Assembly: GCF_031326345.1 (NCBI RefSeq)
Contig: NZ_CP133671.1
Location: 248,001 to 312,000, forward strand
Length of the DNA: 64,000 nt
Direction of reading: 5' to 3'
From: Aureispira sp. CCB-E
GTDB lineage: Bacteria > Bacteroidota > Bacteroidia > Chitinophagales > Saprospiraceae
The position numbers and the translations under genes were made by a program. The notes beneath the pieces were generated by a model. The model saw only the letters and a program-made list of their open reading frames with translations, ran no database searches and was not told where the DNA came from. Shown here piece after piece: positions 39,357 to 51,088 of this stretch. Position 1 is the stretch's first letter; the number at the start of each line of letters is the position of its first letter.

Positions 39357-40595
39357 TTACTCATAATCCCCTAAGCCTAAAGTTTGAAAATCATCCCAAA
39401 ACTTAGGATACGACTTGCAAACTACTTTTTTATCTTCCATGCTTACTTTATCCAAAATTAAAGCAAGCGGCGCAAAAGCCATTGCCATTCGATGATCATC
39501 GTACGTATTTACTTTTATAGACTGTTGCTGATTGGTAATTCCTTTTCTTATACTAAGTGAATTTTCCGTTGCATCGACCAAACAACCTAACTTTTCAAGC
39601 TCTACTTTTACCGCATTAATTCGATCGGTCTCTTTAATGGTTAGGGTTTCTAGCCCTGTTAACTCCGCATCTACTTTTAATGCAGCACAAACCACGGCTA
39701 GGGTCTGTGCCAAATCAGGGCAATCAGAACAGTCGTATTTAAATTCTGTTATTCTACAAGGGATTTTTTCTAACAAAATACCTCGTTCGTTAAATGTTGT
39801 TTTGACTCCAAACGACTCCATAATATCAACCAGCACAGCATCGCCTTGAACAGAATTTTGTTGTAAGCCATTTAGTTGAATCGTAGCTTCATCGGCAATA
39901 GCCACCAAACTATAATAATACGATGCTGCCGACCAATCTGCTTCTACCACAAAAGGCTTGGGAACATATTCTTGATTTGGCACTTTAATCATATCGTTGT
40001 GCCACAAAGCCAATATTCCAAACTCTTCCATCAAATTCAAGGTCATTTGGATGTATGGTCTAGAAATAATTTTTCCTTCCAAGATCAGTTCCATCCCATT
40101 TGGCAAGACTGGTGCAATTAACAATAAAGCAGAAATAAATTGACTACTAACATGGGCACCTATGGTAATACGTTGTCCCCATTCATCAATTTTATGCTCT
40201 TTCATATGCAAAGGCGGATAGCCTTGCTTGCCTACATAACAAATTTTTGCCCCTAATTCATTCAGGGCATCAGCCAAGACGCCAATAGGGCGTTCGCACA
40301 TCCGTTTGGTTCCCATCAAAACTTGGTTGTTTCCCTTCCAAGCTAAATAAGCCGTCATAAAACGATACGCAGTACCCGCTTCTCCAGCATCTAATATGGG
40401 CTCATTTAATTTTTCCAAAAGACTCTTCAATGTTGTCGTATCCTTGGCATTGGATAAGCCACTAATAGAAAACTCTTCTCCTGAAATGGCTTGAATCATC
40501 AAAATTCTATTGCTAATACTTTTAGAACCATTCAGTGTAATTTCTCCTTTAATATTTGTTTTTTTAGAGACCATTGGCTTTTGATTATAAATCAT
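39357..40595 (-). CDS. aroA: 3-phosphoshikimate 1-carboxyvinyltransferase (EPSP synthase)
   Basis: A 412-residue enzyme of the shikimate pathway that condenses shikimate-3-phosphate and PEP. It has the N-terminal LNGSKSISNRILMIQAI motif (Lys25 and Ser24 bind substrate), AGEAGTAYRFMTAYLAW for the second signature (the usual GNAGTAxR), and a C-terminal TYDDHRMAMAFAPLAL with the expected Asp-His-Arg. Its ATG overlaps the stop of the DAHP-synthase gene by four bases (ATGA), so they are translationally coupled. It is the last gene of the long trp-aro operon and converges with the helical-repeat gene. Confidence 0.93.
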   Translation of the reverse strand: MIYNQKPMVSKKTNIKGEITLNGSKSISNRILMIQAISGEEFSISGLSNAKDTTTLKSLLEKLNEPILDAGEAGTAYRFMTAYLAWKGNNQVLMGTKRMCERPIGVLADALNELGAKICYVGKQGYPPLHMKEHKIDEWGQRITIGAHVSSQFISALLLIAPVLPNGMELILEGKIISRPYIQMTLNLMEEFGILALWHNDMIKVPNQEYVPKPFVVEADWSAASYYYSLVAIADEATIQLNGLQQNSVQGDAVLVDIMESFGVKTTFNERGILLEKIPCRITEFKYDCSDCPDLAQTLAVVCAALKVDAELTGLETLTIKETDRINAVKVELEKLGCLVDATENSLSIRKGITNQQQSIKVNTYDDHRMAMAFAPLALILDKVSMEDKKVVCKSYPKFWDDFQTLGLGDYE

Positions 40596-41605
40596 GAAAA
40601 AGAATCTCTCAAACGTACTGTCTGTTCGATTTTTTGATACAACACTTCTGCTTCAGCAAAAGAGAGGGTTTGTTGTCCATCCGAAAATGCTTTTTCGGGT
40701 TGACGATGGACTTCTACTATTAGCCCATCTGCACCAGCCATAACACCTGCCAAAGACATTTGTTCAACATATTTGCGCACACCTATACCATGAGAAGGAT
40801 CAACAATAACAGGTAGGTGCGATTTGTCCTTTAATATAGGAACTGCATTCAAGTCCAAAGTATTTCTATAACTTGTTTCAAACGAACGGATGCCTCGTTC
40901 ACACAACATGATTTTTTCATTCCCATTTGAAAAAACATACTCTGCGGCTTGCAGTAACTCGTCAATTGTTCCAGAAATACCTCTTTTTAGCAAAACAGGT
41001 TTATCTACTTTTCCTAAAGCATCCAAAAGGTTAAAATTTTGTGCATTCCTAGCCCCCACTTGCAGAATATCTACGTAATCTAGCATCGCCTCTATTTGTG
41101 AAACTTGCATGACTTCTGTGATAATTTTAATTCCTTCTGCTTGACAGGCCTTATAAAATAACTTTAAACCATCTAAACCCATTCCTCTAAATGAATACGG
41201 AGAACTTCTTGGTTTATACACACCACCTCTCATTACCCGAACATTATTTTTTACTAAATGTTTAACTGTTTCTTCTATCTGTTCCTCTCCTTCGATAGAA
41301 CAAGGACCAGCCATAACCGTAAAATGACCTCCACCAATCTTTACTCCATCTCCCAAATCAATCATAGTATCTTGTACTTTCCACTTACTAGAGACAAGTT
41401 TATAGTTATCACTTACACGATGCAAATCCTGTACACCTGGCATTACACCAATACTTCTAATATCAAATTCTTGTTGCCCTATGGCCACTAAATATTCCTG
41501 AAACTGTGTTTTAACATTGGTATATTTATAGTTAATCGCATCCAATTTTTGAGTTAATTTTTGATACTGATCAGCTGCTATATTTTTTTCTAATTGAATA
41601 ATCAT
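40592..41605 (-). CDS. aroF: 3-deoxy-7-phosphoheptulonate synthase (DAHP synthase, type I beta)
   Basis: A 337-residue enzyme for the first shikimate-pathway step (PEP plus erythrose-4-phosphate). An N-terminal 75-residue ferredoxin/ACT-like domain (MIIQLEKNIAADQYQKLTQK) precedes the TIM-barrel, which has AGPCSIEGEEQ, MRGGVYKPRSSPYSFRGMG, VGARNAQNF, LLKRG and VDPSHGIG, all of the metal/substrate-binding signature of the KDO8P-synthase-like type I beta group. The extra domain in this group commonly mediates feedback inhibition by an aromatic amino acid. It sits inside the trp operon and is coupled to aroA. The gene symbol among aroF, aroG and aroH is a convention only. Confidence 0.9.
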   Translation of the reverse strand: MIIQLEKNIAADQYQKLTQKLDAINYKYTNVKTQFQEYLVAIGQQEFDIRSIGVMPGVQDLHRVSDNYKLVSSKWKVQDTMIDLGDGVKIGGGHFTVMAGPCSIEGEEQIEETVKHLVKNNVRVMRGGVYKPRSSPYSFRGMGLDGLKLFYKACQAEGIKIITEVMQVSQIEAMLDYVDILQVGARNAQNFNLLDALGKVDKPVLLKRGISGTIDELLQAAEYVFSNGNEKIMLCERGIRSFETSYRNTLDLNAVPILKDKSHLPVIVDPSHGIGVRKYVEQMSLAGVMAGADGLIVEVHRQPEKAFSDGQQTLSFAEAEVLYQKIEQTVRLRDSFS

Positions 41606-41626
41606 AATGACTTGTTTCTTTTTACA

Positions 41627-41651
41627 ATAGTTAGCTGCGCTGCTACTATTT
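41627..41651 (-). repeat. Dispersed palindromic repeat, copy F
   Basis: The minus strand reads AGTAGCAGCGCAGCTAACTA, identical to the core of copy A. It lies inside the trp-aro operon between trpA and aroF. Confidence 0.6.
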
Positions 41652-41666
41652 TTATAAATAATAAAC

Positions 41667-42455
41667 TTATTTAGCGACAGTAGAAACGTTAAGACCTTCT
41701 ACAAACGCTACAACATCTCGCTCTATATGCTCGCTCTTTTCCAACATTCTAATAAAAGCACTTCCTATAATTGCTCCATTCGCATATTGGCAAACGGTCT
41801 GATACGTTGCTTGATTAGAAATCCCAAAACCAATCAAAATAGGGTTCTTTAAATTCATTGCTTGAATTCTTTTGAAATAAGCTATATTTTTTGCCTCAAA
41901 ACCAGCTTGTTTTCCTGTTGTTGCTGCCGAAGAAACGACATAAATAAAAGCATTGCTTAATGCATCAATTTTTCGAATGCGTTTGGTCGATGTTTGTGGC
42001 GTAATTAAAAAAATGAGCCGAATGTTATACTTCTTAAACAAACCTTGATAATGCGTTTCGTATTCATACAAAGGTAAATCTGGTAGGATCAAACCATCTA
42101 CGCCCACTTCTTGACAGCTTTTTAGAAATGCTTCAAAGCCATATTGCAAGACAGGATTAAGATAGCCCATTAGAATAATTGGTAACGTTGTTTGATCTCG
42201 AACTGTCTTAATTTGTTCTAAAACTTTTCGAATCGTCATCCCATTCTGCAAAGCAATAGTACTGCTCTTTTGGATGGTTGGTCCATCTGCCAAGGGGTCA
42301 GAATAAGGCATTCCAATTTCGACCAAATCTACACCTGCTTTATCCAAAGATAAAATGATCTCTCCAGTTGATTCTAACTGAGGATAACCAGCTGTACTGT
42401 ATATATTGAGTAGATTTTCTTGCTTTCGCTCAAATAATTGATTGATTCTATTCAT
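41667..42455 (-). CDS. trpA: Tryptophan synthase alpha subunit
   Basis: 262 residues with the TIM-barrel signature of TrpA: LVEIGMPYSDPLADGPTIQ containing catalytic Glu47 and Asp57, then ILMGYLNPVLQYG and a phosphate-binding ISNQATY region with GAIIGSAFIRML at the end. It cleaves indole-3-glycerol phosphate to indole and passes it to TrpB. Its ATG follows trpB by 116 bases, a gap that holds an imperfect hairpin repeat (42469-42535). Confidence 0.93.
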   Translation of the reverse strand: MNRINQLFERKQENLLNIYSTAGYPQLESTGEIILSLDKAGVDLVEIGMPYSDPLADGPTIQKSSTIALQNGMTIRKVLEQIKTVRDQTTLPIILMGYLNPVLQYGFEAFLKSCQEVGVDGLILPDLPLYEYETHYQGLFKKYNIRLIFLITPQTSTKRIRKIDALSNAFIYVVSSAATTGKQAGFEAKNIAYFKRIQAMNLKNPILIGFGISNQATYQTVCQYANGAIIGSAFIRMLEKSEHIERDVVAFVEGLNVSTVAK

Positions 42456-42468
42456 TGTTTTTATTTTT

Positions 42469-42535
42469 ATAGTAGTTAGCGATGCTGCGACTTCGTGTTT
42501 TCAATGACCACGTAGTAGCACCGCAGCTAACTATT
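42469..42535. repeat. Two-armed hairpin of the dispersed repeat family, copy G
   Basis: Two inverted copies of the family core face each other: AGTTAGC... at 42473 and GCTAACT at 42526, with about 18 of 24 arm positions matching across a short loop. It is the largest hairpin in the trp operon, between trpB and trpA. Confidence 0.6.
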
Positions 42536-42571
42536 GTTTTTAAGTAGGCTATTAAAATTTTTTTTAACAGC

Positions 42572-43750
42572 TTAGAGGAACTTCATATAGGTTTCTAAGT
42601 CCTTATCTCCTCGTCCCGATAAGTTCAAAACCGTTACCTCATTGGGTTTAAAATTAACTTGCTCCAAAGCAGCAATCGCATGTGCACTTTCTAATGCGGG
42701 AATAATTCCTTCCAATTTAGTTAGCCTATAAGCAGCCGTTAACGCTTCTTGATCGGTCACTGCTATTGCTTGGGCTCTCTTACTAACAATCAAATGCGCA
42801 TGCAAAGGACCGATTCCTGGGTAATCTAAGCCCGCAGAAATTGAATGAGGCTCTACAATTTGACCGTCTTTTGTTTGCATCAACAGAGTTTTGCTAGCAT
42901 GGATAATTCCTTCTGTTCCCAAAATGCTTGTTGCAGCCGACTTGCCAGAATGAATCCCTTCTCCTGCCGCTTCTACTGCAATCAGTTCTACGTCTAAGTC
43001 ATTCAAATAATGAAAATAAGCCCCTGCAGCATTGCTTCCCCCTCCAACGCAAGCAATAATTCGAGTCGGATTCTCATTTCCAGTTTGTGCTTTTAATTGT
43101 TCTTTTATTTCTTGACTAATCACAGATTGAAATCGTGCCACCATATCAGGATAAGGATGAGGACCTACAACAGAACCAATGATATAATGTGTATTTTCAG
43201 GATGATTAATCCAATCCCTAATGGCCTCATTGGTAGCATCTTTTAGTGTTTTACTACCACTATAAACAGGAATAACCGTAGCCCCTAACATTTTCATTCT
43301 AGCGACATTGGGTGCTTGTCGCTCTACATCTAGAGCCCCCATATACACCACACACTCTAGTCCCATCAATGCGCAAACTGTTGCTGTTGCAACGCCATGC
43401 TGTCCGGCTCCTGTTTCAGCAATTATCCTTGTTTTATTTAGTGCTTTGGCTAATAAGATTTGCCCTATGGTATTATTAATTTTATGTGCACCTGTATGGC
43501 ATAAATCTTCTCGTTTTAGATAAATTTTTGTCTGATATTGCGCACTCAATCGCTGTGCAAAATACAAGGGGGTTGGGCGCCCAACATAATCTTTTAATAG
43601 AGCTTGATACTCCTTTTGAAAAGTTGCCGTTTCCGTTATTTGTACGTATTGTTTTTTTAATGTTTCTATATTAGGATAGAGCATTTCAGGGATAAAAGCA
43701 CCTCCAAAAGAGCCATAGTACCCTTGTTCTGTTACTTGATATGTTGTCAT
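42572..43750 (-). CDS. trpB: Tryptophan synthase beta subunit
   Basis: 392 residues, PLP-dependent, making tryptophan from indole and serine. KREDLCHTGAHKINNTIGQ places the PLP lysine at Lys90. AETGAGQHGVATATVCALMG and CVGGGSNAAG (cofactor phosphate loop) are present, as is the C-terminal LSGRGDKDL. Its N-terminus (YYGSFGGAFIPEML) is the ordinary TrpB1 type, not the TrpB2 paralogue. It lies three bases downstream of trpF. Confidence 0.95.
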   Translation of the reverse strand: MTTYQVTEQGYYGSFGGAFIPEMLYPNIETLKKQYVQITETATFQKEYQALLKDYVGRPTPLYFAQRLSAQYQTKIYLKREDLCHTGAHKINNTIGQILLAKALNKTRIIAETGAGQHGVATATVCALMGLECVVYMGALDVERQAPNVARMKMLGATVIPVYSGSKTLKDATNEAIRDWINHPENTHYIIGSVVGPHPYPDMVARFQSVISQEIKEQLKAQTGNENPTRIIACVGGGSNAAGAYFHYLNDLDVELIAVEAAGEGIHSGKSAATSILGTEGIIHASKTLLMQTKDGQIVEPHSISAGLDYPGIGPLHAHLIVSKRAQAIAVTDQEALTAAYRLTKLEGIIPALESAHAIAALEQVNFKPNEVTVLNLSGRGDKDLETYMKFL

Positions 43751-43753
43751 TAT

Positions 43754-44365
43754 TTATTCCTTTATTTGTTGTACTAATTCTTTGATTTGAGCCAAATCTT
43801 TTAGGGCGGGTGCTATTTCAAACCTACTGTTTACATCAATTCCATATAATTGAGGATGTGCTAATCTTAAAACTTGAGGAATATCCGTTAGCCCAATTCC
43901 TCCGCTCAAAAAAAAGGGTTTTGAGCTAGTATACTGTTCCAAAATTTGCCAATCAAATTGAACACCATTCCCTCCATAAGACTTTCCTTTGGCATCCAAT
44001 AAGAAATAATCACAGTAAGCTTCATACGCCTTTAAGGTATCAAAATCGAATTGCTCGTCTACAGCAAAAGCTTTGAGCACAACGATTCTCTTTTGTTGCA
44101 ATTGCTTGCAAAAATCAGGTGATTCATTTCCATGCAGTTGGATACAATCCAATGCAAATGCCTCTATACGTTGCTCTATCTCAGCTATCGTAGCATTGAC
44201 AAAAACGCCCACTCGTTTAATCCTTGGCGAAATATCTATTGTTGGTAGTTGCTGCACATATCTAGGTGATTGGGAATAGAAAATAAATCCTACAAAATCA
44301 ATATTCAGTGCTGTCAAAGCCTCAATATTAGCAACTTCTCTCATTCCACAGACCTTAATTTTCAT
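43754..44365 (-). CDS. trpF: Phosphoribosylanthranilate isomerase
   Basis: 203 residues. It begins MKIKVCGMRE, whose Cys7 is the usual catalytic base, then LDFVGFIF-like and RVGVFVNA strands, CIQLHGNE, LLDAKGKSYGGNGVQFDW with the Asp/Gly loop, and FLSGGIG followed by GIDVNSRFE. This matches TrpF along its length. Its start overlaps the end of trpC by 11 bases, consistent with coupled translation. Confidence 0.93.
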   Translation of the reverse strand: MKIKVCGMREVANIEALTALNIDFVGFIFYSQSPRYVQQLPTIDISPRIKRVGVFVNATIAEIEQRIEAFALDCIQLHGNESPDFCKQLQQKRIVVLKAFAVDEQFDFDTLKAYEAYCDYFLLDAKGKSYGGNGVQFDWQILEQYTSSKPFFLSGGIGLTDIPQVLRLAHPQLYGIDVNSRFEIAPALKDLAQIKELVQQIKE

Positions 44366-45173
44366 AGGAGAACTTTTTAGTGCTTTTTAAGCTTACCTGT
44401 TGAATAAATCTCGCACAAGCATCTTGAGGTCTAGCGTGTTGCATAAAATATTCTCCAATTAAAAAACCTTCAAATCCATGTTCTTGGAGCAAGACTACTG
44501 TATCGGGGGCATTGATGCCACTTTCTGCAACTTTGACCACGTTATTGGGTAATAAGGAAGCAATCCGCAAAGAGTTTTCAATATCTACTTCAAAAGTTTT
44601 TAAATTTCGATTGTTAACACCAACTAAATCTACCTCTGGACACAACTTATTCAATTGATCTTCGGTGTGCACTTCCATCAATACTTCCATTCCCAAACTT
44701 TTAGCAAATTGTGCCAAACGTCTTAACTCTTTAGCATCCAAACATTCTGCAATCAACAAAATCACATCTGCTCCTATTGATTTTGCTTCTATAATTTGAT
44801 ACGCATCAATCACAAAGTTTTTATTTAATATAGGGGCATAATTAAACCGTCTGGCTTCTGTTAGATCACTAGACGAACCTCCAAAAAAATGCGTATCGGT
44901 TAATACCGATAAAGCCGAAGCACCTGCTTGCATATAACCAATAGAAACTTCTTCGACTTTTGCATATGCATTGATGTTTCCCTTGGAAGGAGATTGACGC
45001 TTAAACTCTGCAATAATACCTTGCATGGTTGGTCGTTTCAAAAATTCTACTAATGATACGATAGGTGTATCAAAGTAGATGCTTTGTTCTAGTAGTTGAG
45101 CGGGATATAAGGTTTTGCGCTGTTCTACCTCTTTTCTTTTGTAAGCGGTTATTTGGTCTAATATCGTTTCCAT
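44355..45173 (-). CDS. trpC: Indole-3-glycerol-phosphate synthase
   Basis: 272 residues of the TrpC TIM barrel: GIIAEFKRQSPSKGNI (catalytic Lys region), ALSVLTDTHFFGGSSSDL, LNKNFVIDAYQIIEA, VDLVGVNNRNLKTFEVD and VAESGINAPD. It closes the indole ring from CdRP. It is free-standing here and not fused to TrpF, as in most Bacteroidota. It lies three bases downstream of trpD. Confidence 0.94.
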   Translation of the reverse strand: METILDQITAYKRKEVEQRKTLYPAQLLEQSIYFDTPIVSLVEFLKRPTMQGIIAEFKRQSPSKGNINAYAKVEEVSIGYMQAGASALSVLTDTHFFGGSSSDLTEARRFNYAPILNKNFVIDAYQIIEAKSIGADVILLIAECLDAKELRRLAQFAKSLGMEVLMEVHTEDQLNKLCPEVDLVGVNNRNLKTFEVDIENSLRIASLLPNNVVKVAESGINAPDTVVLLQEHGFEGFLIGEYFMQHARPQDACARFIQQVSLKSTKKFSYEN

Positions 45174-45175
45174 TT

Positions 45176-46165
45176 TTATTGATTGATTAGCTGTTTAAAA
45201 TTTTGATATGCTCGTTTGCTGAATAAAGCCTCCTCTGCTTCCTTGATGCAGTCTTCTAGTGCTTTTTGAGGATTAAAGCGTTGAATGGCAATCCCTGCAT
45301 TGGTACAAACGACTTGATTTTGGGCAGTACTTCCTCTCCCTTCTAATATGGTTGAAAATATTTGAGCAGCCGCAGCAATGGTGCTTCCTCCTTCTAAATC
45401 TTTAGCATACTGCTGTTTTTGTCCAATTCCATGAGGCGTTAATAATGCTTCCGTTGTAGGTGTTATCACTTTGAACGCTCCTGTTAAAGAAACTTCGTCA
45501 TAACCGTCCAAGGCATGAACGATAGCAAATTCTTTATCTGTTTGTTGCAATACATATTGATACAGCCGAACAATCTCCAAATTAGAAACTCCAACCATCT
45601 GTTGTTTGGGTTGCACTGGATTGACTAAAGGACCTAGTAGATTAAAAAAAGTACGCAGCCCTAAATCTTTGCGAATAGTTCCTACTGCTTTCATGGCAGG
45701 ATGAAATAACGGAGCATGCAAAAAACAAAGTTGATGTTTCTCCAATTGATTTTTTAACACAGCTTCCTTATTCGTAAATTTATACCCTAATTTTTCAAGT
45801 ACATTAGAAGAACCACAAACAGAAGACACTCCATAATTACCATGCTTAGTAACCATATATCCAGCTCCTGCTACGACAACAGCTGCCAAAGTAGAAATAT
45901 TAAAGGTATCTTTTCCGTCCCCTCCCGTTCCACACAAATCCACACTATTATAATCTGACAAATCAATTTTTAAGCACAATTCTAATAAGGCTTCGCGAAA
46001 GCCTTGCAGTTCCTCTGTAGAAATCGGTCGCATTTGAAATACCGTCAAAAAAGCAACGATATGAGATGGATTAAATTTTTCTTGGGCAATGTCAATTAAG
46101 ATTCTTTTGGCTTCTGCCCGAGTCAAGTATTCTTGTTGAAACAAGCTTTGCAATATTTTTTTCAT
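45176..46165 (-). CDS. trpD: Anthranilate phosphoribosyltransferase
   Basis: 329 residues. An N-terminal helical domain (LTRAEAKRILIDI) is followed by VDLCGTGGDGKDTFNIST, the PRPP-binding Gly-rich loop, and TKHGNYGVSSVCGSSNVLEKLG. FLHAPLFHPAMKAVGTIRKDLGLRTFFNLLGPLVNP is the family's anthranilate-binding region. It is a separate TrpD rather than a TrpG-TrpD fusion. It is 15 bases downstream of trpG. Confidence 0.94.
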   Translation of the reverse strand: MKKILQSLFQQEYLTRAEAKRILIDIAQEKFNPSHIVAFLTVFQMRPISTEELQGFREALLELCLKIDLSDYNSVDLCGTGGDGKDTFNISTLAAVVVAGAGYMVTKHGNYGVSSVCGSSNVLEKLGYKFTNKEAVLKNQLEKHQLCFLHAPLFHPAMKAVGTIRKDLGLRTFFNLLGPLVNPVQPKQQMVGVSNLEIVRLYQYVLQQTDKEFAIVHALDGYDEVSLTGAFKVITPTTEALLTPHGIGQKQQYAKDLEGGSTIAAAAQIFSTILEGRGSTAQNQVVCTNAGIAIQRFNPQKALEDCIKEAEEALFSKRAYQNFKQLINQ

Positions 46166-46179
46166 TGGTTGTGTTTTAT

Positions 46180-46782
46180 TTATTGTTTTACCAATTTTTT
46201 TCTTAGAAAAGCCTGAGCCTCTTTGACAAAGTTCTGAAGCAGTGCTTTGCCTTGAGGCGTTAGTACAGATTCTGGATGAAACTGCATGCCCATTACAGGT
46301 GCCCTTTGATGTTTTATAGCCATAATTTGCCCTGTTTCATCCTGAGCCAAGATTTTCAAGCAATCTGGAAGTTTTTTGGTATCTATAATCCAAGAATGAT
46401 AGCGTCCGACCACCAGTCTATCGGGTTGCCCCTCAAATAGACCAGTCCGATCTAAAATTTGAATAGGTGTAGCAATTCCATGATAGACTTTTTTGATATT
46501 TTTGAGCGTTGCCCCAAATGCTTGACCAATAGCTTGATGCCCTAAGCATATTCCCAATATTGGCTTTTTGGTGTGATACGTCTTAATGATATCTAATATA
46601 ATCCCTGCGTCTTTGGGCAGACCTGGACCTGGGGAAAGAACAATAGCGTCGTAATTAGCAACTTCTGCTAAAGAAATTTGGTCATTTCTATAAACTTCAA
46701 CGCCCCCGTGCAGGATTTCTCGAAGATATTGCACCAAATTGTAGGTAAAGGAATCGTAATTATCTATAATTAGTAGTTTCAT
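46180..46782 (-). CDS. trpG: Anthranilate synthase glutamine amidotransferase subunit
   Basis: 200 residues of a class I glutamine amidotransferase: LIIDNYDSFTYNLVQYL, LSPGPGLPKDAG, the nucleophile Cys79 in GICLGHQAIGQAFGA, and the His-Glu pair in GMQFHPESVLTPQGK. It supplies ammonia to TrpE. The same subunit could also serve para-aminobenzoate synthase (pabA), but its place after trpE supports TrpG. Confidence 0.92.
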   Translation of the reverse strand: MKLLIIDNYDSFTYNLVQYLREILHGGVEVYRNDQISLAEVANYDAIVLSPGPGLPKDAGIILDIIKTYHTKKPILGICLGHQAIGQAFGATLKNIKKVYHGIATPIQILDRTGLFEGQPDRLVVGRYHSWIIDTKKLPDCLKILAQDETGQIMAIKHQRAPVMGMQFHPESVLTPQGKALLQNFVKEAQAFLRKKLVKQ

Positions 46783-46849
46783 CTTATTTCTATTATGGTT
46801 ATGAATACTTGGTAGATTGTGAGCGAACCATCTACAGCACCTGATTTAG

Positions 46850-48253
46850 TTATACTTCAATAGCCTGATTTAGCGCCTTTTGGAGAGCAGCTAGTTTATT
46901 ATTGACTTCTTGCAATTCTTTTTCTTCTTCTGAATCTATCACAATACCAGCCCCTGCTTGATAATACAGACAGTTGTCTTTGCTCATAAAGGATCGAATC
47001 ATTATCGCCTGATTTAGCTGACCTTTGGGATTAAAAAAGCCAATAGCACCTCCATAAAAGCCCCTGCTTTGGTTTTCGTATTCATTAATCAACTCTAGTG
47101 CTTTATATTTAGGTGCTCCTGATAAGGTTCCTGCTGGAAAAGTATCGCCAAAGACCTGAAAAATATTTGCGTCAGTGGGTAAATCTCCTTTCACTTTAGA
47201 GATAAGATGAATAACATGACTGTAATACTGAATTTCTTTATACTCTTCTACCACTACATTTTGTGTGTGTCGATTCAAATCATTACGAGCTAAGTCTACC
47301 AACATCACATGCTCTGCATTCTCTTTTGGGTCAGCAAGTAAAGCAGTAGCATTTTCTTGATCTAATTTTGCATTACCTGTTCGTTTATAGGTGCCTGCAA
47401 TGGGCGTTAGCGTTACTTTGCGGTCTCGAATAACTAGTTGAGCTTCTGGGGAAGATCCAAATATTTTGTAAGCTCCATAATCAAAATAAAATAGGTATGG
47501 GGAAGGATTAATAGAACGCAACGCTCGGTAAACATTAAAATCATCTCCTTTGAAATGTTGCTGAAATTGGCGAGCAAAAACAATCTGAAAAACATCTCCA
47601 AGGGCACAATGTTCTTTCCCTTTTCTAACCAAATCTTTGAATGCTTCATCACTTAAATTGCTAGTCCTTTTTCCATCTAATTCAAATTGATAAGTGGTCA
47701 ATGCTCCTTTTTTTAAATAACGCTCTACTTTATCCAATTCACTTTCCTGACCTTCTAACAGATTTTCCAGTAAGTACATCTCACTCGTATAATGATTGAT
47801 AACAATGACATAACGATAGACCGCATATCTCAAATCTGGCAAATCATGTTGCCGTTTGGTCGCATCTAATTCCAATGTTTCAAAATACTGAACGGCATCA
47901 AAATTAGTATGACCAAACAATCCATTAAATCGTTGATAAGCAGCTGCTCCTTCAAACTGAAATCGATTGCAAAATTGCTCCAGTAAATTAGAAACATTAT
48001 TCTTGGGCGGTATCTGAAAGTTCTCTACCGTTCCATCTGGAAAATGATATTTCAGCACTCGGTCTTGTATCATCAATTCGGCAATTGGTTCTGCACAAAT
48101 AAAAGAATAGCTATTTTCTTTTGATTGGTAATCAGAGCTTTCTAACAATAAACTGTGCGCCATTTTGTCTCTTAATTGCAGGTAAATGCTGACAGGAGTA
48201 TGCAAATCTGCTAAGCGAGTACGACTAATCGTCCTAAACTTCATTAAATTCAT
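46850..48253 (-). CDS. trpE: Anthranilate synthase component I
   Basis: 467 residues. The tryptophan-binding motif LLLESS is at residues 35-40, implying feedback inhibition. The chorismate-utilising domain includes GDVFQIVFARQFQQ, NPSPYLFYFDY, SSPEAQLVIRDRKVTLTPIAGT, AEHVMLVDLARND and FPAGTLSGAPKYKALE, then FYGGAIGF and QAGAGIVIDSEEEKE. The ATG three codons in (48244) is an alternative start. It is the first structural gene of the operon, directly after the attenuator terminator at 48289-48327. Confidence 0.95.
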   Translation of the reverse strand: MNLMKFRTISRTRLADLHTPVSIYLQLRDKMAHSLLLESSDYQSKENSYSFICAEPIAELMIQDRVLKYHFPDGTVENFQIPPKNNVSNLLEQFCNRFQFEGAAAYQRFNGLFGHTNFDAVQYFETLELDATKRQHDLPDLRYAVYRYVIVINHYTSEMYLLENLLEGQESELDKVERYLKKGALTTYQFELDGKRTSNLSDEAFKDLVRKGKEHCALGDVFQIVFARQFQQHFKGDDFNVYRALRSINPSPYLFYFDYGAYKIFGSSPEAQLVIRDRKVTLTPIAGTYKRTGNAKLDQENATALLADPKENAEHVMLVDLARNDLNRHTQNVVVEEYKEIQYYSHVIHLISKVKGDLPTDANIFQVFGDTFPAGTLSGAPKYKALELINEYENQSRGFYGGAIGFFNPKGQLNQAIMIRSFMSKDNCLYYQAGAGIVIDSEEEKELQEVNNKLAALQKALNQAIEV

Positions 48254-48288: not shown

Positions 48289-48327
48289 CAAAAAAAAACT
48301 TGCAAATCTACGAGAGATTTGCAAGTT
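48289..48327 (-). terminator. trp attenuator terminator
   Basis: On the minus strand ACTTGCAAATCT is followed by CTCGT and a perfect complementary arm AGATTTGCAAGT, then nine T's. The stem covers 48297-48327, and the T-run is at 48290-48298. It lies 45 bases beyond the leader-peptide stop codon and 36 bases before the trpE start, so it can end transcription before the structural genes. CTCTCG at the 5' arm end and loop is complementary to CGAGAG in the end of the leader-peptide frame (near 48375-48380), a candidate antiterminator. Confidence 0.88.
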
Positions 48328-48371
48328 CTATATATGAGTTGTTATCTGAAAATGGATATATAGGAGGTCTG

Positions 48372-48467
48372 CTACTCTCGCCATCGAAGGGAAGTAGTCC
48401 ACCACCAAGCAACAAGAGCGTTGCTAGATTTTTGTCCAAAATTTGATATGTTTGTTTCTTTTTGCAT
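48372..48467 (-). CDS. trpL: trp operon leader peptide (31 residues)
   Basis: The minus strand from the ATG complementary to 48465-48467 encodes MQKETNISNFGQKSSNALVA followed by three consecutive Trp codons (complement of 48399-48407), then TTSLRWRE and a TAG stop. Trp is four of 31 residues, against its usual rarity. Its position between a promoter and an intrinsic terminator in front of trpE is that of an attenuation leader: ribosomes should stall at the Trp codons when charged tRNA-Trp is scarce. CTACT just after the Trp codons can pair with AGTAG at the stop codon, the alternative hairpin to the antiterminator. Confidence 0.85.
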   Translation of the reverse strand: MQKETNISNFGQKSSNALVAWWWTTSLRWRE

Positions 48468-48472
48468 TGATA

Positions 48473-48503
48473 CAAAGATTAGACGTTTTATTTTAGAATG
48501 CAA
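48473..48503 (-). promoter_or_regulatory. trp operon promoter (Bacteroidota -33/-7 type)
   Basis: Read on the minus strand: TTG (complement of 48501-48503), 20 bases, then AATCTTTG (complement of 48473-48480), seven of eight bases of TAnnTTTG. The predicted transcription start falls at or within a few bases of the leader ATG, so the leader may be translated from a leaderless or nearly leaderless message. Confidence 0.6.
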
Positions 48504-48529: not shown

Positions 48530-49171
48530 TTATTTTTTTGTTAACAAAAAACCATGCTCTTTGACGTAATCTAAGCCCCAGCACCGAATTAATCCATGAT
48601 TAGGAATAAGTGGTGATTTTAAATGCTCTACGTCAAATGAATTCCCATAATAAGCCATTAAATCTTTAGGTGATATACTAAAAGGAGGCTCTTCTTTGAT
48701 GGGGGCATATTCTAATGTGTTGATAAATTGTTGTGCATTCAAGGGCAATATTTGTTGTATCTTTGCTACATACTTCAATCTCATGGAAAGAGGCAATGCG
48801 ACCAAAGCAGCTCTATCATAGACCAAATCAATCTCTCCAACAGCTTCTGTACTGAGCGAAAAAAAATCAGCATTGATAATAGTCAACTGATTGCTTTCAA
48901 AGCGATTTCCTTGTTTTTCAAATGCTAGTCCTTGTTCTTCAAAAAACTGATAAATAGCCTTTTCTGCCAACTCTACCCCAATGACATGTTTGGCATATTG
49001 ACTAAAGTAAACCAAATCAATGCTCTTGCCACAAAGCGGGACTAAAATTCTCTTTCCTTCTATTTTTTCTGGCGTTAGGTACTCCAAAATATAGGGGTGT
49101 ATGTCCTTTCTATGAAAAGAGGTTTTAAATCCTCCTTCATTCCAGGAATCAATCCAAAATTGTTTTTCCAT
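48530..49171 (-). CDS. tpm: Thiopurine S-methyltransferase-like enzyme
   Basis: About 213 residues from the ATG complementary to 49169-49171: MEKQFWIDSWNEGGFKTSFHR, then ILVPLCGKSIDLVYFSQYAKHVIGVELAE (SAM-binding), and DFFSLS, IDLVYDRAALVALPLSMRLKYV, all characteristic of TPMT/bacterial Tpm. A longer frame starts at 49288, but its extra N-terminus is a run of isoleucine codons from A+T-rich intergenic DNA, and cytosolic TPMTs have no membrane anchor. Members S-methylate thiols or detoxify tellurite and selenium compounds. It is immediately upstream of the trp promoter, same strand. Confidence 0.85.
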   Translation of the reverse strand: MEKQFWIDSWNEGGFKTSFHRKDIHPYILEYLTPEKIEGKRILVPLCGKSIDLVYFSQYAKHVIGVELAEKAIYQFFEEQGLAFEKQGNRFESNQLTIINADFFSLSTEAVGEIDLVYDRAALVALPLSMRLKYVAKIQQILPLNAQQFINTLEYAPIKEEPPFSISPKDLMAYYGNSFDVEHLKSPLIPNHGLIRCWGLDYVKEHGFLLTKK

Positions 49172-49510
49172 TTTTTGAATATGTTTTGGGCTGACTATTC
49201 TTACAAGCTCAATATAGTCGGGAATAAGAGCAATAATTATAATAATTATGACAATGATAATCAGCGGGGTTATAATTCTTACTTTCAATATACAATATTG
49301 AAAAAATATATCAAATAGTAATATTTTTCTTGTTAATATTATTATAAAAACAACTTTATTATCCTATCTGTCTATCTATTTCAACGTGTATGCTTGAATA
49401 GAAGTTCTATCACATGAATCAAAAAACAAACATCACCCAGTTGGGAAAGGCTTAAAAATTACGCAAAAACATCTCCTAGTAAACTTGTTGGTTCTTAAGC
49501 AGGTTCACAT

Positions 49511-51088
49511 TTAATGATGAAACACAATTTTAGTATTGGGTAACCATGCTTTTATTTTTGCTTGTTCTTCTTCTGTCAACTTATTGCGTTCCAACTTCAA
49601 TAGTTTCAATTTTTTTAAATTCTGAATAGATGCTGGCAATGTTTTAAGTTGATTGTATCCCAAATCCAAATGTTCTAGGCTTTCTAAGTTGCCAATTGAT
49701 TCGGGAAGTTCTTTCAAGTCATTATAACGCAATTCTAGTCGTTTCAAAGTTTTGAGATGACCAAAGTCTTCTGGTAGACGTGTCAATTTATTATCCCTCA
49801 AATTCCAGTACTCTATAGCAGGAAGTGTTGTTAATATATCAGGCAACGACTTATGCTCATTTTCTATCATTTCTAAGTGTTTTAGACTCGTCAATTGTAC
49901 CAATTCTTTAGCTGCACGAGAAATACTTAGATAGCGGTTAAATGCTATATTCAGATGCGTTAAATTTTTTAATTCGCCAAATCCACTTGGTAGGTTTCTA
50001 ATTCCTGTATTGGCTATATTTAGTTCTTCTAGTTGTGCAAGTTTCCCGATACTCTTTGGCAATGCTGTAATTCTATTAGCATCCAATTTTAGAACCAACA
50101 ATTTCTTAAAATTAGAAAAGATATCGGGTAGTTCTGTAAACTCATTTCGCTCTAAGTTTAAATAAGTTAAGTTACTTAGCTTGCCCAATTCGTTTGGAAG
50201 GGTATCTAAAAGGTTAGAACCAATATCTAATCGCACTAATTGCTTCATTTTATACAACTCATAAGGCAAACGCTTGATTTTATTTAACTGCACACTAAAG
50301 TCTGTCAATTGTTCCAACTCATTAACATCAGAAAACAATTTGCTTAGTCCTAAACCATCTAAATTTAAGCTTTCTAATTGTTTTAAATTTCCCAACCATT
50401 TATAAATATCATTTGCTTTTTTAACGGGATTGTTTCCTAGAGACAATTTTCTAATAGCCGTCAAATGACCTATTTGGCTAGGGATTTTTGTTAATTGATT
50501 GTGGCTAATATCCAAGACCTCCAATGCTGTTAGATCACCAATTGATTCTGGCAATTGTTCCAAACGGATTTTACTAATTTCTAAACGCTGAAGCCGCTTT
50601 CTTGTAAAAATTTCAGAGGGAAGACTTGTTAACTTTTCATTTTGACTCAAAACTAACCACTCTAATTGGTTCAATTGTGCAAAGTTAGTAGGTAAAGAGG
50701 TCAAGTGATTTTTGGAAACATCCAACCGACGCAAGTTTTTCATCTCGCAAAGTGCTTCTGGTAACTTCTTTAATTTATTGCCACGAATTTCTAAAACCTG
50801 TAGCATTTTCATTCCCGTAATAGCATCAGGAATCGTTTCCACTAAGGTATGATTCATATTTAGCCATTGCAGCTTATCCATTCTTGGAACAGCCGTTGGA
50901 AAAGTATATGCCCTGCGCAAAACTTTCAATCGCAATGCTTTATCCGCTTCTCGAACAGCTTGATCAATAGAATAATAAACGGGCTTTTTTTCCAATTCTT
51001 GTAAAGGCAATAATTGGGCAAACGTTTCTAATCCAACTAAGAGTAGTATTCCTAATACACTATATTTCATTGATTCCATATTATTCAT
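49511..51088 (-). CDS. Secreted leucine-rich repeat protein
   Basis: 525 residues with a signal peptide (MKYSVLGILLLVGLETFAQ near the start; the first ATG adds six residues before it). From about residue 70 to 510 there are about 18 repeats of roughly 23 residues with the pattern LxxLxxLxLxxNxLxxLPxxIGxL, the LRR type found in bacterial surface and cell-interaction proteins. The C-terminus (KIKAWLPNTKIVFHH) is a capping end; there is no T9SS sorting domain. It is likely periplasmic or surface exposed and mediates protein binding. The nearest neighbour upstream is a lipoprotein of Ycf48 type. Confidence 0.85.
   Translation of the reverse strand: MNNMESMKYSVLGILLLVGLETFAQLLPLQELEKKPVYYSIDQAVREADKALRLKVLRRAYTFPTAVPRMDKLQWLNMNHTLVETIPDAITGMKMLQVLEIRGNKLKKLPEALCEMKNLRRLDVSKNHLTSLPTNFAQLNQLEWLVLSQNEKLTSLPSEIFTRKRLQRLEISKIRLEQLPESIGDLTALEVLDISHNQLTKIPSQIGHLTAIRKLSLGNNPVKKANDIYKWLGNLKQLESLNLDGLGLSKLFSDVNELEQLTDFSVQLNKIKRLPYELYKMKQLVRLDIGSNLLDTLPNELGKLSNLTYLNLERNEFTELPDIFSNFKKLLVLKLDANRITALPKSIGKLAQLEELNIANTGIRNLPSGFGELKNLTHLNIAFNRYLSISRAAKELVQLTSLKHLEMIENEHKSLPDILTTLPAIEYWNLRDNKLTRLPEDFGHLKTLKRLELRYNDLKELPESIGNLESLEHLDLGYNQLKTLPASIQNLKKLKLLKLERNKLTEEEQAKIKAWLPNTKIVFHH

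Follow-up and report, generated by a model that had tools for sequence, protein, structure and literature searches.

A cis-regulatory motif of Bacteroidetes, Bacteroid-trp, was published in 2010 by Weinberg et al. (PMC2864571), and Rfam holds it as RF01692 under the name "Bacteroidete tryptophan peptide leader RNA". The main text of that paper mentions the motif a single time, in Table 1, and contains none of the terms tryptophan, leader peptide or attenuation; the supplement may draw the terminator. In F. psychrophilum, Bacteroid-trp has been named upstream of trp, and attenuation by leader peptides has been inferred for amino-acid operons (PMC6414381, PMC9723704). In Sinorhizobium meliloti, the 5' end of the trpL RNA (rnTrpL) is the ATG of trpL (PMC7298713). 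Here we describe a candidate trp leader in front of trpE in a 64,000-nt stretch of the genome of Aureispira sp. CCB-E (referred to below as the window), together with its counterparts in related genomes.

The trp leader of the window and its relatives

The whole leader lies on the minus strand at 48503-48290, flanked by trpE (46850-48253) and a methyltransferase-like gene (Pfam TPMT, 48530-49288), and every named element is present. Read 5' to 3' on that strand, the order is TTG, 20 nt, AATCTTTG, TATCA, ATG, the frame, its stop, a 42-nt spacer, the hairpin, a T-run and trpE, which starts at 48253, downstream of the T-run ending at 48290. The features are listed here with the segment letters used throughout.

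48473..48503, minus strand: Bacteroidota-type promoter, made up of TTG (48503-48501), a 20-nt spacer and AATCTTTG (48480-48473)
48372..48467, minus strand: leader frame of 31 codons, MQKETNISNFGQKSSNALVAWWWTTSLRWRE, with ATG at 48467 and the stop TAG at 48374-48372
48399..48407, minus strand: triple TGG (TGG TGG TGG, WWW), the candidate sensor, from the sequence
48389..48397, minus strand: B, the post-Trp strand CTACTTCCC, predicted protector partner of the frame end (B:C hairpin, -7.8 kcal/mol by folding)
48381..48383, minus strand: fourth Trp codon, at the margin of the putative antiterminator strand, from sequence and geometry
48372..48382, minus strand: C, frame end and stop; GCGAGAG (48381-48375) is the putative antiterminator strand, and the whole stretch alternatively pairs with B
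48330..48371, minus strand: D, the RNA from stop to terminator, whose family-wide partner is the Trp-codon region (A)
48295..48329, minus strand: intrinsic terminator hairpin, with 5' arm 48329-48315, loop CTCGT 48314-48310 and 3' arm 48309-48295
48310..48316, minus strand: F, CTCTCGT, the loop and top 2 nt of the 5' arm, target of C by duplex prediction
48290..48298, minus strand: U-tract of nine T's, from the sequence
39357..48253, minus strand: presumed regulated operon trpE-trpG-trpD-trpC-trpF-trpB-trpA-DAHP synthase-EPSP synthase, assigned by Pfam

All genes of the presumed operon, from trpE to EPSP synthase, run in the same direction. A first-pass annotation, made from the letters of the window, had described the promoter, the 31-codon frame with three Trp codons and a fourth, the stop and the nine T's before trpE, and we found all of them on the minus strand. 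The promoter agrees with TTG-N-TAnnTTTG at 8 of 9 positions, the single mismatch lying in the TAnnTTTG box. The perfect 12-bp hairpin of that annotation is indeed a terminator, but its length needed correction: our scan gave 15 pairs, with 13 consecutive perfect Watson-Crick pairs and -16.9 kcal/mol. Both complementarities that had been pointed out, CTACT (48397-48393) with AGTAG (48376-48372) and CGAGAG (48380-48375) with CTCTCG, are present and fall into helix classes supported by the tests below, B x C and C x F, respectively.

Some features of the surroundings may be recorded here. The TrpE of the window and its counterpart in Aureispira sp. CCB-QB1 share 99% identity. Next to the methyltransferase gene, on its upstream side, 49511-51088 (minus strand) encodes a 525-residue protein that by eye resembles leucine-rich-repeat proteins. 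The acetolactate synthase large subunit model TIGR00118 found no match in the window's own genome, which is rated 99.93% complete, and a branched-chain amino-acid auxotrophy is possible.

Conservation of Trp codons and terminator upstream of trpE in relatives had been set beforehand as a check. TrpE was searched for in 100 genomes of the family, and the DNA upstream of 78 main trpE loci was taken; one genome in which the match starts at residue 109 (G075) and one with a short fragment (G008) were left out. A Trp-rich frame (at least 2 Trp in 5 codons) with a terminator preceded trpE in 74 of the 78 loci when scored by script, and by eye a 75th (L046) carries both, with WWW in the leader, at a greater distance from trpE. 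For L050 the contig gives just 149 nt upstream of trpE, and in L004 and L042 (2 of the 78) the leader is absent from the upstream stretch read. In L042, trpE stands closely behind another coding frame. At least three Trp within five codons were found in 63 of the 78 real upstream regions versus 0.03% of shuffled ones, while 7% of shuffled upstream regions reach the looser count of two Trp in five. In an alignment judged by eye, the frame and WWW are retained in three further Aureispira-like loci and in L006. Apart from the Trp codons, the peptide is highly variable within the family.

Outside the family we examined 67 trpE loci. Automatic extraction had given no locus in 99 places, 40 of which were fetched, picked to spread over families, and two duplicates of family genomes (L108, L114) were omitted. 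Families of the same order or class (f2, f3, f4, f5, f8, f9) carried a Trp cluster with terminator in 29 of 30 loci, a few of these f2-f9 class leaders having WW or WLW only. In other classes the count was 18 of 37 loci, several of them doubtful by eye (L159, L166). In two loci (L072, L077) a tandem pair of WW-rich leader frames is listed before trpE, as if the attenuator had been duplicated. By eye, terminator stems resembling GGCTTGTC / GACAAGCC are shared between genera, between families and in part between operons (trp leaders of f1 and f5, some his leaders), and the window's genus has a stem different from these.

An Rfam scan of the window gave nothing at gathering score, T-box and other amino-acid leader models included; nine weak matches (E 0.08-9) were taken as chance. 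Likewise, 19 family loci scanned over their full length gave no match to any Rfam family at gathering score. The RF01692 model had no match in the window or its own genome. It matched in 4 of the 100 family genomes (G019, G034, G051, G037; one above the cut-off) and, phylum-wide, in 29 of 296 genomes and 12 of 140 genera, counts from which the filters lose weak matches. All four family matches fall on trpE leaders of the same set as the window's leader. Set against L080-L083, the model stops within the 5' arm of the terminator, leaves this arm unpaired and therefore holds neither the terminator nor the C:F pairing. Judged from sequence, the leader of the window is a diverged member of Bacteroid-trp that the Rfam model misses, as it misses most members in the family; RF01692 could be rebuilt to include the terminator and the new pairing. 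A thinly detected motif thus becomes a leader at nearly all examined trpE loci of the family and in other families of the class. The first-pass annotation had called such a leader striking for the lineage, which is less so than claimed, since a trp leader motif of Bacteroidetes has been in print since 2010 (PMC2864571).

Predicted helices between leader segments and modelled positions of the ribosome

Helices were tested without an alignment. The duplex energy of each leader's own pair of segments was compared with that of partners swapped in from other genera, row and column means were removed, and 2000 permutations were run; these statistics ignore phylogeny. A consisted of the Trp codons and the 24 nt preceding them, B and C of the first and second half of the post-Trp frame with stop and 4 nt, D of the post-stop spacer, E of the terminator 5' arm, and F of the loop and stem top. 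In the 74 family leaders, three helices emerged for which 0 of 2000 permutations were as good: the Trp-codon region with the post-stop RNA (A x D, z -13.3), the post-Trp codons with the frame end (B x C, z -7.6), and the frame end with F, the loop and upper stem of the terminator (C x F, z -10.4). Broken down by partner, C gave z -7.7 with the loop, -9.2 with the top of the 3' arm and -1.3 with the top of the 5' arm. No support was found in the same leaders for an antiterminator of the E. coli type, in which the post-stop RNA pairs with the 5' arm (D x E, z -0.1). C x E (-0.8), D x F (-0.6), B x E (-0.8) and A x C (-1.4) were weak or null, B x F reached -2.3, and C x D had the opposite sign (+4.4).

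All three helices persisted in the near (43) and far (31) subsets of the 74 leaders, and also after F was thinned to less than 70% identity (35 leaders; A x D -8.5, B x C -6.8, C x F -8.4; 0 of 5000 permutations). A control of C with reversed F still gave z -4.3, so part of the C:F signal may be composition or hairpin symmetry. A C:F duplex of -7 kcal/mol or better is found in 62 of the 74 leaders, and with the 12 weaker ones omitted, the helix in C starts 28, 19 and 15 times in the three codon phases and takes in the stop codon in 43 of the 62. As all three phases occur, the constraint seems to be on the RNA, not the peptide. Outside the family, C x F and C x E were about equal in class leaders (n=29; z -3.5 and -3.7), and other-class leaders (n=18) gave -4.8 and -2.7, with A x D at only -1.2 and B x C at -0.7; D x E was null in both sets (-0.6 and -0.4, respectively). 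By eye, the frame end of L140, L145, L170 and others from other classes seems paired with the 5' arm, not the loop, as if the target had shifted in evolution.

Column-pair covariation in a fixed-register subset (n=12) placed the C:F helix as the top stretch, about 3 sd higher than the average over all stretches. The runner-up was nearly equal (0.83 vs 0.88 for C:F), and the permutation tests therefore carry more weight. C and F are unchanged in the four aligned loci of one genus (the window, L182, L183 and L003), so the covariation comes from other genera. In L006, by eye, the stem is mostly rewritten with CTCG and CGAG retained, and CTTACTC:GAGTAAG takes the place of CTACT:AGTAG as B:C. In the window's genus, the predicted A and D partners are not at the position seen in the family.

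C:F in the window is predicted to comprise 7 pairs between GCGAGAG (48381-48375) and CTCTCGT (48316-48310), with -11.1 kcal/mol. It shares only 2 of the 15 terminator pairs (family median overlap 5) and leaves 13 of 15 free, against a family median of 9.5 lower pairs. The pairings had earlier been described as exclusive, a word that so small a contact with the terminator does not bear out.

The RNA was also folded up to the first nucleotides of the 3' arm, with the ribosome fixed at one position per state. With the ribosome on the first, second or last Trp codon, 77, 81 and 85% of the 74 leaders, respectively, had at least 3 expected C:F pairs, as opposed to 0% at the stop and 30% without a ribosome. 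For the window, the expected C:F pairs were 7.4, 7.4 and 7.5 at the three Trp stalls, 0 at the stop and 1.0 without a ribosome, and this ordering was stable for downstream ribosome edges of 9 to 15 nt (5.9-8.0 stalled, 0 at the stop, 0.9-2.1 without). Pairing tests and folding together thus predict an alternative pairing that a stalled ribosome exposes and a ribosome at the stop hides. Once the full 3' arm was present, the terminator won in every state (means 0.89-0.96; window 0.88-0.95). Because the terminator wins at equilibrium, and because C:F in the window overlaps so few of its pairs, antitermination would have to be kinetic. L003, of the same genus, is predicted to form 6.8 C:F pairs even without a ribosome, and hence to leak. 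Since the fourth Trp codon is at the edge of C, a ribosome stalled there would mask C and favour termination; from this geometry, the fourth codon is probably not a productive sensor.

Promoter position and his leaders

The -7 box of F. psychrophilum spans -12 to -5 (PMC9723704). With this spacing, the 8/9 promoter of the window predicts transcription from 48468 (+1) and hence a 1-nt 5'UTR, in line with the earlier suggestion of a leaderless transcript. Of 121 leaders, 38 combine a perfect TTG-N19-22-TAnnTTTG with an ATG no more than 45 nt away (shuffles about 0.04% per class and sequence), and the distance from box to ATG was 4-7 nt in 14 of them, 16-27 in 23, 37 in one and 8-15 in none. On this basis 14 of the 38 perfect-promoter leaders are predicted to be leaderless. 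When one mismatch was allowed, the number that the window's promoter has, 91 leaders were obtained, 44 at 2-8 nt, 10 at 9-16, 34 at 17-28 and 3 at other distances (shuffles about 1% per class), which makes the gap between the distance classes less clean.

The published share of leaderless or very short 5'UTRs is 5.5% in F. psychrophilum (PMC9723704), and 3.7% of 5'UTRs in B. thetaiotaomicron are shorter than 10 nt (PMC7366714). Compared with these figures, leaderless starts, as predicted from the promoters, look enriched on the trp leader. The genome-wide figures replaced an in-window control of promoter-to-ATG distance as the baseline; in that control a perfect promoter preceded only 1 of 50 frames (distance 14), too few for use. 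The bare TGGTGGTGG pattern was uninformative in the genome, with 101 and 108 matches versus 82 and 105 in controls.

A leader of comparable build is found upstream of hisG in the window's own genome (L173, G000:C1:4878911-4879375, minus strand), where a 36-codon His-rich frame is accompanied by a terminator and could pair, through its TCAAGTGA, with the complementary TCACTTG at the loop of that terminator. Of 33 family genomes with hisG, 30 gave a locus that was read. A His-rich leader frame is present in 26 of the 30, and among the remaining four the upstream contig of one is too short for a judgement. Three or more His in 8 codons were present in 26 of 29 loci versus 6% of shuffles, and four or more in 24 of 29 versus 0.8%. 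In the his leaders with a terminator (n=25), the frame paired with F (z -5.8) and less with the 5' arm (-2.3), and the post-stop RNA with the 5' arm gave +0.4. At the level of sequence, the family's his leaders are built like its trp leaders.

Proposed mechanism, rival explanations and known systems

We interpret the leader of the window as a ribosome-mediated trp transcription attenuator, a diverged Bacteroid-trp leader in which a stalled ribosome would free C for the terminator loop F, and we put the probability of this reading at roughly 0.8. It starts from the observed sequence elements, their conservation and the pairing signal across species. That the leader is a ribosome-mediated trp attenuator had been proposed in the first-pass annotation, and the conservation and pairing tests support it. 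The trp genes would very probably be switched on by Trp shortage through this leader. We infer the start site, translation, stalling, order of folding and read-through as follows. The transcript would begin about 1 nt ahead of the leader ATG, and a ribosome would load on this (nearly) leaderless RNA. When Trp is short, the ribosome would stall at TGG TGG TGG, covering B and leaving C free; C would then pair with the emerging loop F before the 3' arm is complete, and the polymerase would read through into trpE. When Trp is plentiful, the ribosome would reach the stop and cover C, and the terminator would form. Without translation, B would pair with C, and the terminator would form as well.

Several other explanations have to be weighed against this attenuator. 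In a strictly classical E. coli-type arrangement, segment 2 (the post-stop RNA) would pair with segment 3 (the 5' arm). A x D is indeed found as in E. coli K-12, for which the same script gives -10.7 kcal/mol between Trp-codon region and post-stop RNA, and the script recovers the K-12 antiterminator as post-stop RNA with 5' arm at -10.9 kcal/mol (frame end with loop only -4.5). However, with D x E null in family, class and other-class leaders alike, we regard the classical arrangement as very unlikely here. C:F might instead be a kissing contact beside a formed terminator, tuning its strength, pausing or RNA stability. The many terminator pairs that C:F leaves free, in the window and in the family, are compatible with such a contact, as is the terminator retained in equilibrium folding; yet C is predicted to be free at a Trp stall, covered at the stop and, in most untranslated leaders, sequestered by B, a pattern that is most sensible if C:F opposes termination. 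A kissing contact is therefore rather unlikely in our view.

The hairpin could also merely terminate the upstream methyltransferase gene, which shares the strand and stops 26 nt short of the promoter element, the Trp frame being coincidental. A promoter-like site intervenes, however, and a Trp-rich frame with a terminator recurs before trpE at 74 of 78 loci, so that coincidence is scarcely credible. Finally, besides attenuation in cis, the terminated leader (about 180 nt) might act in trans as an sRNA or peptide messenger, by analogy with rnTrpL/peTrpL. Such a role has been reported for the leaderless trpL of S. meliloti (PMC7298713), and the predicted leaderless start would give a similar RNA, but apart from its Trp codons the peptide varies widely, which makes a conserved role for it less likely, and we hold this addition to be highly unlikely. 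The ribosome-mediated attenuator with C as the antiterminator strand thus remains our preferred reading.

Beyond this locus, we see about an even chance that Bacteroidota have an attenuator of their own for trp and his, in which the frame end and stop capture the emerging terminator loop and stem top, and about a third of the clear-promoter trp leaders are leaderless. If this is true, it is not the 5' arm that is captured by post-stop RNA but the loop and stem top by the frame end, and in those leaderless cases the start lets a lineage with little Shine-Dalgarno use load the ribosome as transcription begins. The leaders give a concrete reason to ask how ribosomes of this kind are loaded quickly enough for coupling to RNA polymerase; one switch with predicted leaderless and leadered forms allows a direct comparison. 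They also yield a pairing that can be tested and that is unlike the one in the textbook attenuator.

In comparison with known systems, the kind of regulator is itself known, and what the comparison of sequences adds as new is the leader anatomy, that is, three supported helices with the frame end as the predicted antiterminator strand. Among the literature matches listed, the passages covered do not describe the C:F pairing, which may already be in print. The attenuators of F. psychrophilum follow a similar leader-peptide idea, with no antiterminator anatomy given in the passages covered (PMC9723704, PMC6414381). The trp attenuator RNA of S. meliloti starts at the ATG of trpL (PMC7298713), and the start predicted for the window, 1 nt before the leader ATG, would resemble it; S. 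meliloti belongs to another phylum, and the likeness considered here concerns the 5' end. With Bacteroid-trp, a cis-regulatory motif of Bacteroidetes, the leader shares the position before trpE and the anatomy of those family members that the model does match. With E. coli K-12 trpL, it has in common the Trp codons, the stop, the U-tract terminator and the pairing of the Trp-codon region with the post-stop RNA, and it probably differs from it in the leaderless start. The classical E. coli layout that the first-pass annotation had seen does not, however, extend to the antiterminator, which in E. coli is formed by post-stop RNA and the 5' arm and here, as predicted, by the frame end and the terminator loop, so that the antiterminator strand differs in both place and target.
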